A stretch of DNA of 17,751 bases from Mariprofundus sp. (lineage in GTDB: Bacteria > Pseudomonadota > Zetaproteobacteria > Mariprofundales > Mariprofundaceae), in contig WFUI01000050.1 of assembly GCA_015485035.1 (NCBI GenBank), forward strand, positions 1-17,751, written 5' to 3'. The translations under genes were made by a program, and so were the position numbers. Below are positions 14,988-17,751 of this stretch, piece by piece. Within the stretch, counting starts at the first letter, position 1, and each line of letters starts with the position of its first letter. The notes beneath the pieces were generated by a model, which saw only the letters and a program-made list of their open reading frames with translations, made no database searches and had not been told where the DNA came from.

Positions 14988-15035
14988 AGCATGCCATTGA
15001 ATGCGACGAGAGCCGGGGGATGTGTGAATAGAGCA

Positions 15036-15075: not shown

Positions 15076-15152
15076 GGCGCTTTAGCTCAGTCGGTTAGAG
15101 CATCGGAATCATAATCCGAGTGTCCGGGGTTCGAGTCCCTGAAGCGCCACCA
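15076..15152 (+). tRNA. tRNA with anticodon CAT (probably tRNA-Met, elongator)
   Basis: A 77-nt cloverleaf. The acceptor arms GGCGCTT and AAGCGCC pair fully, and the 3' ACCA is encoded. The D arm is GCTCAGTCGGTTAGAGC. The anticodon stem TCGGA/TCCGA closes the loop ATCATAA, giving anticodon CAT. The T arm CGGGG-TTCGAGT-CCCTG contains one G-U pair. CAT is used by elongator Met, initiator Met and, with lysidine, Ile2. The fully paired first base excludes a typical initiator. Elongator Met is favoured over Ile2 but not proven. Confidence 0.92.
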
Positions 15153-15247: not shown

Positions 15248-15271
15248 TTGATTTCAGGAACAGGGGGTATG

Positions 15272-16234
15272 ATGAAATATATTCTAGGGGCATTTAACTT
15301 CATTGCGCTAGCTCTTGGTATGATTGTTATTTATGTACTTGTTTTTGATGGACTCAGTAATAGAGATACGTCTGTTTCAGTAGTGAATAAAGCAAGAGGT
15401 TTTATTGGCAAACCTCCGCTTAAAATAGCGACAATTTCTTGTATGCCCCAGGATATTGAGGGAAGCACGTTCGTATTCGATTATCCTGTGTTGCATTCAC
15501 AAAATACAAAAATGGTTCAGTTAGAGTTGTCTAATCAGTTAAGAAATAAGTCAATTCTGCTTCATTTAAATGCGCCTGATGATCGAAATCGTCGAATTGT
15601 AAGCTCTCTGATTCCATCAATGGGGTCAGTGACAGTTACAGTTCCCGCTGAAAAATACAGTGTAAGTTTTGATATGGGTAATAATTTTTGCAACCTTAAC
15701 CGTGGTTTTTTGGGGAACCAAAAAAAGATAGGGATAAGGCAGCCTATTAATCTCGAAACGAAAAGCTACGCAACCTTAAATATTGATGATGGTGCAGTTT
15801 CAAATGGGGGATTAAAAATATCATTGAATGAGACTGACAGTGCCATGAATTCCGTGACCTCAACTAAAAGTGATGCATTTCTATCCTTACCAGTGTCTAG
15901 GGATGGGCATTTTTATGTTTCAGCAAAGAGTAATCATTTTCCGTTTGTGTTTATGGTTGATAGTGGTGCAACCAATGTTGCATTTCCAGCTCATTTCATT
16001 AAAAACTTAGGTGTAAAAAGATGTAGTCCTGTTACTACGAATACTGCAAATGGGATTGCAAAAGGCTGCGAAGCAATGGTAAAGGAAATTACTTTTGGGC
16101 CATATACAATAAATAACGTGAAAGTTGTATTTCTGAAACGGCTCAACACTCCACTATTGGGAATGAATGTGCTAAATAAGTTTAAAATGTTTAAGGTCGA
16201 TGATGAGCTGGAGCTTGTAAAAAAAGGCGGTTAG
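15272..16234 (+). CDS. Membrane-anchored retropepsin-like aspartic protease (clan AA)
   Basis: A 320-aa protein with one N-terminal membrane segment (about 4-25, LGAFNFIALALGMIVIYVLV), then a middle region of about 150 residues that I do not recognise, then a C-terminal retropepsin-like domain (about 205-320). That domain has DGHFYVSAKSN, the catalytic triplet D230-S-G in MVDSGATNVAF, TANG (258-261) and LLGMNVLNKF, as in the bacterial TIGR02281/clan AA family. These act as dimers because each chain gives one catalytic Asp. The anchor places the protease outside the cytoplasm. The start was chosen at the second of two adjacent ATGs, 4 nt after GGGGG. Codon and base use are AT-rich, unlike the genes before the tRNA. 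The protease target is unknown. Confidence 0.8.
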   Translation: MKYILGAFNFIALALGMIVIYVLVFDGLSNRDTSVSVVNKARGFIGKPPLKIATISCMPQDIEGSTFVFDYPVLHSQNTKMVQLELSNQLRNKSILLHLNAPDDRNRRIVSSLIPSMGSVTVTVPAEKYSVSFDMGNNFCNLNRGFLGNQKKIGIRQPINLETKSYATLNIDDGAVSNGGLKISLNETDSAMNSVTSTKSDAFLSLPVSRDGHFYVSAKSNHFPFVFMVDSGATNVAFPAHFIKNLGVKRCSPVTTNTANGIAKGCEAMVKEITFGPYTINNVKVVFLKRLNTPLLGMNVLNKFKMFKVDDELELVKKGG

Positions 16235-16256
16235 GAGTGTGGTTCGACTTTTTGGT

Positions 16257-16290
16257 ATATTAGACAAGCCTAAGGATCATCTAATATTTT
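16257..16290 (+). terminator. Candidate terminator between convergent genes
   Basis: ATATTAGA (16257-16264) and TCTAATAT (16280-16287) form an 8-bp stem, with CCTAAGG in the loop, followed by TTTTCTT. The stem is AT-rich and therefore weak. The position between two converging genes supports a termination role. Confidence 0.45.
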
Positions 16291-16300
16291 CTTGTACTGC

Positions 16301-16765
16301 TTAGCTAATATTACGAATTTGCTCGAATTCAGTAAAAACCGAAGAAGCGAGCATATCTAAGAGCTCAAGCTCCTCTGAGTGAAGATGATAAATTGCTGAA
16401 TGCGCTGGATTGTTGGGTGGTTCGGGGACATATGCAATCCTCACATTTGTTCCATGAGAGCTACATAGAGACTTTATATTAGCAACATTGCCTATACTTA
16501 AAACACTTGTAGGGCCAAGTGTCCTATCGGCTGACATAGCACTTTTTGTTTTTCTTAGTCGAGTTTTTTGATCACCATCAAAATACTCCAGCCAATTGAC
16601 GGAGAGGTACTCTTCGTTGGGCTTTAATTCCAAAGCTTGTGGAAGTATTCCTAAAACATTCCCACATTCATCTGTTCGTAGTTTTTTCCTGTTGACATGA
16701 CGAACGACATGATCTGTGTCGGGGATATGCATCCCCTTTTTTAGCTTTAGCTTTGCTGAAACCAT
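16301..16765 (-). CDS. Conserved protein of unknown function, third gene of the TIGR04255 cassette
   Basis: I do not recognise a named domain. The 154-aa protein starts with a basic segment (KLKLKKG). Then come HIPDTDHVVRHVNRKKL (13-29), LGILPQALELKPNEEYLSV (38-56) with NWLEYF (57-62), a middle segment, and RIAYVPEPPNNPAHSAIYHL (109-128) before a hydrophobic Glu-rich C-terminus. The compact HIPDTDHVVRHV, LSVNWLEYF and NNPAHSAIY blocks look like conserved family motifs, and H19 and H122 could be functional. The frame extends nine codons further to 16792, but ATG 16765 overlaps the preceding gene by 19 nt and is preferred. There is no signal peptide or membrane segment. It is probably co-transcribed with the two genes before it. 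Confidence 0.7.
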   Translation of the reverse strand: MVSAKLKLKKGMHIPDTDHVVRHVNRKKLRTDECGNVLGILPQALELKPNEEYLSVNWLEYFDGDQKTRLRKTKSAMSADRTLGPTSVLSIGNVANIKSLCSSHGTNVRIAYVPEPPNNPAHSAIYHLHSEELELLDMLASSVFTEFEQIRNIS

Positions 16766-17373
16766 ATTTCGGGCTTGTAAGGGGCCAGACACTCAGGTAA
16801 CCGGGCAATAGGTATGATGCCAGATGCTCGTTCAGTTTCTCCATTAATACATCTGGACAGGACCCATTTGACATGGATATTAGGAAGGAACTCGGCGGTT
16901 AACCGATTACTGCCATTCGTCCATGCCGCGATTATATTTCCGTTACTAGAAAGCCCCAATCCAGGAAGTCGCTTAGGATTAATTAAGATTATCCCTTTTA
17001 TGAACGCAGAAAAAGAGTCCTTATTAATAGGCTTGTCACCCTCTTCCCACTCATCCACGTCATGGAGTAAATCAATTTGATGAAATAGCGTATCACGCCA
17101 TGAGCGTTCCATGTGCATAGACACCCGAGACAAGGCGATTTTTACTGAGGCTGAAGCATCAAAGAGACACTCACTGAGTGATTCTGTGTCTGGAATATCA
17201 AATGATGCAGGTGATTTGGAAGGGATTAATTTTTTTAACTCCTCTCTAATATAAGTGTCCTTTTGAGGCCCCCATAAATGAGTCACATTAGATGCAAAAT
17301 CTCCACCACTAGCTTGTTCTTCAGCATTGATTGGTTGAAGCAAGTCAAGACAGGCATTAGAAAGTGTACTCAT
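16747..17373 (-). CDS. Conserved protein of unknown function, second gene of the TIGR04255 cassette
   Basis: No named domain is recognised. The 208-aa soluble protein has a variable N-terminal half. Its C-terminal half (about 100-205) looks strongly constrained: DEWEEGDKPINKDSFSAFI, then RLPGLGLSSNGNIIAAW (135-151), then RLTAEFLPNIHVKWVLS (157-173) and APYKPEIWF. The SNGNIIAAW and RLTAEFLP strands suggest a beta-sheet fold, but that is inference. ATG overlaps the TIGR04255 stop as ATGA, and its own end overlaps the third gene. No metal- or nucleotide-binding signature is seen. Confidence 0.75.
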   Translation of the reverse strand: MSTLSNACLDLLQPINAEEQASGGDFASNVTHLWGPQKDTYIREELKKLIPSKSPASFDIPDTESLSECLFDASASVKIALSRVSMHMERSWRDTLFHQIDLLHDVDEWEEGDKPINKDSFSAFIKGIILINPKRLPGLGLSSNGNIIAAWTNGSNRLTAEFLPNIHVKWVLSRCINGETERASGIIPIARLPECLAPYKPEIWFQQS

Positions 17374-17751
17374 CGTTGAAAAAGCTCCCTTGTCTTATCA
17401 GAAATAGAGGATTCAAAGACTCTGTTTTTTTCGATTCTCATGAGGTTAATCAGCTCAAAAATAGCATCGTCTTTCTGAGGTGCATTGGACTCTGTAAATA
17501 TATCCTGATCAATAACAAAAGATATATGGTTCAGTATCGGAGATGGAACTACTGTAGAGTTTAGCCTTAGTTGGCAACCAATATTTGGTACTGGCATCAT
17601 GCATTGCACATTGTAAAAATTTAAGTCCGGGAAAGAGTCTGGAACTTTTGGATAGATGTGAAAATAATCTTCATTCTTAAGACTAGAGCCAGTAACTGGT
17701 ATGTCGATTCGATTGATATACCGGATCCCAATGCGACTTATTTTTTTGTAA
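17370..17751 (-). CDS. TIGR04255 family protein, C-terminal part (start beyond window)
   Basis: The open frame continues to the window edge; the visible 126 codons are the C-terminal half. From the edge it reads RIGIRYINRIDIP (the characteristic TIGR04255 block), then EDYFHIYPKVP, and near the end INLMRIEKNRVFESSISDKT, the family's C-terminal signature of a helix pair followed by FESSI(S/T)DK. TIGR04255 proteins are sporadically distributed and their activity is not established to my knowledge. Although GTG 17607-17609 could start a shorter frame, the conserved block lies upstream of it, so the real start is outside. It overlaps the next gene by ATGA and is the first visible gene of the cassette. 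Confidence 0.85.
   Translation of the reverse strand, partial: YKKISRIGIRYINRIDIPVTGSSLKNEDYFHIYPKVPDSFPDLNFYNVQCMMPVPNIGCQLRLNSTVVPSPILNHISFVIDQDIFTESNAPQKDDAIFELINLMRIEKNRVFESSISDKTRELFQR

Follow-up and report, generated by a model that had tools for sequence, protein, structure and literature searches.

What do three overlapping genes at the end of a Mariprofundus contig encode, when the first of them belongs to TIGR04255, a named yet unexplained family of sporadic distribution? The window, i.e. the whole stretch of DNA analyzed here, comprises 17,751 nucleotides (positions 1-17751 of contig 50 in an assembly of 294 contigs). The earlier note on this DNA had described three co-oriented genes overlapping by ATGA and by 19 nt. 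All three were found on the minus strand, overlapping by 4 nt at the T/M and by 19 nt at the M/C junction:

17370..17750, minus strand: T, the C-terminal 126 aa of a TIGR04255 protein (NCBIfam match), open at the contig end
17370..17373, minus strand: T/M overlap, ATGA
16747..17373, minus strand: M, the second gene, 208 aa, with a variable N-terminus and a conserved core
16747..16765, minus strand: M/C overlap, 19 nt, assuming the 154-aa start of C
16301..16765, minus strand: C, the third gene, about 154 aa, with a predicted ADP-ribosyltransferase (ART) fold
15076..15152, plus strand: tRNA read as Met(CAT), at the variable site adjoining the cassette segment

T reaches 53.3 bits against NCBIfam TIGR04255, whose curated cut-off is 30, so its family label stands. 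The match covers profile positions 119-251 of 252, and no further piece of the missing half of T was found anywhere in the assembly. The stop of C lies at 16301 and the ATG at 16765 yields 154 aa with the 19-nt overlap; alternative starts are GTG 16792 (163 aa) and ATG 16732 (143 aa, no overlap with M). In the alignment, a lysine-rich stretch ending in G precedes the start of the conserved domain in several C homologues, and this makes the 154-aa start the preferred one but does not prove it. A start of M giving the 4-nt overlap with T is available in seven of the ten other loci with both genes present (L002, L003, L004, L005, L007, L009 and L163), and the overlaps are therefore not a one-off. 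The motif blocks that had looked conserved are indeed so in alignments of M and C homologues; in the core of M, DEWEEGDKPI and PGLGLS..G..IAAW stand out in an alignment of 18.

The cassette is real, recurring and mobile. With M, protein database searches returned ten proteins, and with C six, the window's own included in each case. Scanning the genome_contigs collection with the M alignment yielded eight loci, from Zetaproteobacteria, Gallionella, Gallionellaceae, Acidithiobacillus, Curvibacter, two other Betaproteobacteria and a Gammaproteobacterium. C lies directly behind M in all eight, and T precedes them in seven, the eighth contig beginning inside M; the small proteins thus recur beside TIGR04255 in unrelated genomes with their order unchanged. 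T of L004 is split in two pieces, a degenerate copy. T of L002 is 60% identical to the C-terminal part present in the window. M gave no match to plasmids and phages; scans of viral contigs (IMG/VR) returned two contigs. All three genes are present on one of them (L163), between an upstream gpA-type phage terminase and a downstream KAP-type NTPase; the other (L162) has T, M and the start of C at the contig end, beside a Zot-domain gene. A complete trio is also carried by a genome of the same genus, G022. Its M and C are only 45% and 42% identical to those of the window, but the trpS proteins of both genomes share 93%, which argues for horizontal spread; with 46% identity, the M of Gallionella is as close to the window as the same-genus copy. 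The sporadic distribution claimed before is borne out by the presence of M in 2 of 61 genomes searched, its own among them.

The genomic site agrees with this mobility. GC content is 0.37-0.42 in 1-kb windows from position 15001 and 0.50-0.55 up to 14500, in the ordinary chromosomal DNA that makes up most of the window, and this confirms an AT-rich segment beside the tRNA at 15076-15152. The tRNA was read as Met(CAT), the Ile2 CAT tRNA being the other candidate identity. We fetched 18 stretches upstream of trpS from the same genus, 17 of which could be scanned (three being ≤1.5 kb), and found neither T, M nor C in these 17, i.e. the cassette is not fixed in relatives. The same tRNA adjoins trpS in seven of the 18, and for five of these seven more than 4 kb of sequence is available. 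In two of these five, G008 and G012, a phage-type tyrosine integrase directly follows this tRNA, and in G012 a second copy of the tRNA 3' end lies about 6.6 kb further on. This places the trio in a variable tRNA site that serves integrases in relatives, as the proposed island location had implied. Behind the tRNA of the window the ORFs leave no space for an integrase, and the contig ends inside T. A housekeeping locus is ruled out by the patchy distribution and the different DNA at this site in relatives.

Further observations concern the same site. A gene for a TIGR02281-type clan AA aspartic protease (15269-16234) lies in the AT-rich segment and faces the cassette in convergent orientation; the 17 scanned stretches contain no homologue. 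Beside C, the intergenic positions 16240-16276 form a near-exact 37-bp match with about 4153-4182 of L168, an island at the same tRNA of G012 that otherwise differs from the window; an exact 28-base pattern derived from it was absent from the viral contigs. At a contig end of G004 (L181) the same tRNA occurs twice as an inverted pair near trpS, possibly an assembly artefact.

The earlier statement that C has no recognised catalytic domain is correct for sequence profiles: Pfam, NCBIfam and PHROG gave no family at E≤1, and PADLOC a single weak match (E 0.056). However, its predicted structure (pLDDT 94.7) points to an ART fold. In a VIA-align search with this model, rows 1-33 all belong to the ART superfamily and span the whole model before the first other fold appears. 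Among 34 members, R (32/34), S (33/34) and H (33/34) are the three most conserved residues of a diverse family; they correspond to R11, S44 and H111, numbered on the 143-aa form that starts at ATG 16732. With regard to the R-S-E clade of the ART superfamily, the third conserved residue of C is H and not E, as read from the alignment and not from superposition on a solved enzyme. Neither the combination of R-S-H with ADP-ribosyltransferase nor TIGR04255 and its name variants occurred in the literature searched (open-access PMC main texts, supplements excluded).

Beyond the window, TIGR04255 heads many three-gene units with differing second and third genes. In a phylum sample it is present in 29 of 398 genomes at 31 places. 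Among the 30 places besides the window's own, two repeat other loci (L050 is the G022 trio and L053, by gene layout, is L002). In 28 of the 30, T is followed by two same-strand genes that may count as second and third, but not in L049 nor in L057, which is truncated by its contig; the third genes of L055 and L060 were found by profile. C of L055 matched as two separate pieces, a degenerate copy. The third genes fall into seven clusters (12, 5, 5, 2, 2, 1 and 1) and the second genes (29 proteins) into eleven, none of which is common to two third-gene clusters. The largest cluster, with 12, corresponds to the C family, its second gene being of the WDG type, named after a W-D-G motif, in 10 and of the window type in 2 of the 12. 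It was joined with profile A9, to which eight of the 12 contributed rows; a comparison of window-type C with seven others supports it independently (prob 90, E 1.8e-6). The 55 partner proteins include one PemK toxin, by sequence the third gene of L046.

Several of the other third genes show features of their own. One family of 271-332 aa has S-x-C-N-like motifs (L044, L047, L052, L054 and L070), another of 190-232 aa an SN(T/S)CD motif (L045, L048, L056, L058 and L061). The PADLOC candidate PDC-M32A matches four of the 55 partner proteins, none of which belongs to the ten genes in second or third position of the CN-type units; pooled over proteins, these four matches presumably correspond to CDM-type third genes. 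The third genes at L063:4046-4423 and L068:1575-1946 look HEPN-like by eye, and Pfam gave no support for this at E≤0.01.

In a tree of 34 T rows, from which L065 was left out, third-gene types cluster with 10 changes compared with a shuffled mean of 17.2, a value as low being reached in none of 200 shuffles. The starred branches force at least three changes for the C type and at least two for the CDM type. L046 falls together with three CDM rows (100/99), in a region around L046 and L066 where a long-branch warning makes single placements unsure. Clustering and forced changes together indicate that T and its pair have for the most part evolved jointly, though some exchanges occurred.

M and C also occur as a pair away from T. 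The C profile hit 15 of the 398 genomes, in 13 beside T and in two (G112 and G110) away from it. An M-type gene lies directly upstream of C in all 15, the M match of G110 being weak (E 1.2e-5). The WDG profile marks 21 places in 20 of the 398 genomes, eight of them T loci. At 11 of the 13 others a short ORF directly downstream is C-like by position and motifs. As a set, these 11 ORFs match the C profile with prob 97 and E 9e-11; singly, four do (L087, L097, L105 and L107). The downstream ORF of L102 overlaps more, no short C-like ORF was found behind the WDG gene of L108, and L104 has a weak T match (E 3e-9). M-C units with no adjacent T match are L087, L088, L097, L103, L105, L106 and L107, and the core of the cassette thus appears to be the M-C pair, to which T is often added. 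In L101:1-1416 (reverse complement), a WDG-C unit has a 471-aa protein, ATPase-like by eye, in the place of T.

M itself matched no family in Pfam, NCBIfam, PHROG or PADLOC at E≤1. There is moderate evidence from profile comparison, the one link that joins the two types, that M is a distant relative of the WDG-type second genes: prob 7 and E 0.0047 were obtained with 8 rows, prob 67 and E 5e-5 with 22 rows.

On balance, we think it probable, if far from assured, that T-M-C is a horizontally moving tripartite cassette resembling toxin-antitoxin systems, with C as ART-fold effector, M as its inhibitor or folding partner and T as shared regulator, sensor or stabiliser. C would bind NAD+ and, using R11-S44-H111, either transfer ADP-ribose to a cellular target or destroy NAD+. 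M, encoded just ahead in an overlapping frame, would be its cognate inhibitor or folding partner, and T would hold or stabilise the M-C pair and sense a trigger, perhaps phage infection.

It is unlikely that the roles are distributed differently, with T, as a promiscuous antitoxin or chaperone similar to Panacea domains, doing the neutralising and M serving the effector as its adaptor or targeting subunit. T stays constant while the pairs behind it vary, as expected of a promiscuous neutraliser, and it looks non-enzymatic, its predicted model being a duplicated beta-alpha-beta4-alpha fold and its alignment containing no invariant residue. However, the seven M-C units with no adjacent T match require that the restraint come from elsewhere, if C is toxic.

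Quite unlikely in our view is a third reading, in which C, an enzyme of ART fold resembling KptA, acts in RNA repair or on small molecules and the cassette is an accessory repair or metabolic unit. C resembles KptA/Tpt1 in predicted fold only, as PF01885 has no match to it in Pfam at E≤1. Other T units carry different third genes, one of them the PemK toxin, and the distribution is sporadic as well as island- and phage-borne, which all speaks against a repair unit. C showed no sequence link to KptA, DUF952, RES or DarT, in a low-power test in which those families missed each other too and whose sets were flawed (several wrong-frame RES rows, wrong ORFs in the first DUF952 set). Sequence searches of PDB chains gave nothing for C and A4. 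For A1 (best E 0.22, a DNA polymerase IV) and A2 (best E 0.0074, Pumilio, part of the chain; a further one at 1.1) matches were obtained, the first two of which we took as chance.

The least likely reading, that C is no ART at all, its structural rows reflecting a common alpha+beta arrangement and R, S and H serving binding rather than catalysis, draws on the lack of a significant Foldseek match in the PDB or the viral library and of a sequence link, but is hard to reconcile with 33 consecutive rows of a single superfamily over the whole model, ahead of other folds, and with R, S and H leading conservation across a diverse family.

The tripartite reading with C as effector finds its closest published working analogue, among those found, in CmdTAC, where an antitoxin and a SecB-like chaperone restrain an ART toxin until a phage capsid protein binds the chaperone and causes release (PMC11618068). 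The analogy is one of layout, i.e. three components including an ART effector, predicted in our case, and the roles of C as effector, M as cognate restraint and T as stabiliser or sensor were assigned by it. The triad of CmdT is H-Y-[EDQ], whereas C conserves R, S and H; the order in the name of CmdTAC is toxin-antitoxin-chaperone, whereas the ART-like gene comes last in T-M-C; and CmdC is a SecB homologue, whereas T compared with a SecB profile gave prob 0.6 in a low-power sequence test.

Other known systems share single features. RES is counted within the ART superfamily (PMC9503650) and typically paired with DUF2384 (PMC3482391). Xre-RES likewise joins a small partner gene to a toxin domain, but RES (PF08808) has no match to C and DUF2384 none to M in Pfam at E≤1, and T-M-C has a third gene; RES structures are absent from the VIA-align rows of C, which excludes nothing. 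The antitoxin of DarT is a macrodomain protein. DarTG differs from T-M-C in that neither DarT (PF14487) nor the macrodomain matched C or M in Pfam at E≤1. In Panacea (PanA) networks, one constant family is combined with many different toxin partners (PMC8832971, PMC10440598), similar to T; however, the second and third genes of T units vary in concert, and T comes in addition as a third component. Judged by the libraries and open-access papers searched, T-M-C is new and kin to a known kind of system.

The anti-phage role proposed for T-M-C stays inferential, and the defence neighbourhood of M-C loci is suggestive at best. Strong PADLOC matches lie near 2 of 11 M-C loci, a raw count with no null model that is based on the 10 of 106 scanned neighbour proteins mapped to loci. 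L007 is flanked downstream by a GmrSD-type/PDC-M55C gene and upstream by an IetA-like AAA gene; L163 has a PDC-S20 gene as neighbour, and L003 only a partial mad2 match. At E≤1e-10, 40 PADLOC families match the 106 proteins, many as redundant models of one protein; mad3, Csx1 and a second mad2, among others, are matched outside the 10 mapped. Strong Cas12f matches were set aside as probably the IS605-type transposase of L004. The part of T in the window has no match in PADLOC-DB at E≤1, and 35 T rows gave one match to HamB (0.0012) and one to PDC-S05 (0.0041).

A broader proposal, to which we give slightly less than even credence, is that TIGR04255 marks undescribed tripartite conflict systems in which a constant sensor is joined to interchangeable pairs of inhibitor and effector, the most frequent effector being a new R-S-H lineage of ARTs whose pair also acts as a T-free toxin-antitoxin pair. 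If this is true, TIGR04255 genes would be pointers to conflict systems with different effectors and could thereby guide the discovery of new ones. The NAD-dependent enzymes of bacterial conflicts would also gain an ART lineage whose third active-site residue is unusual.
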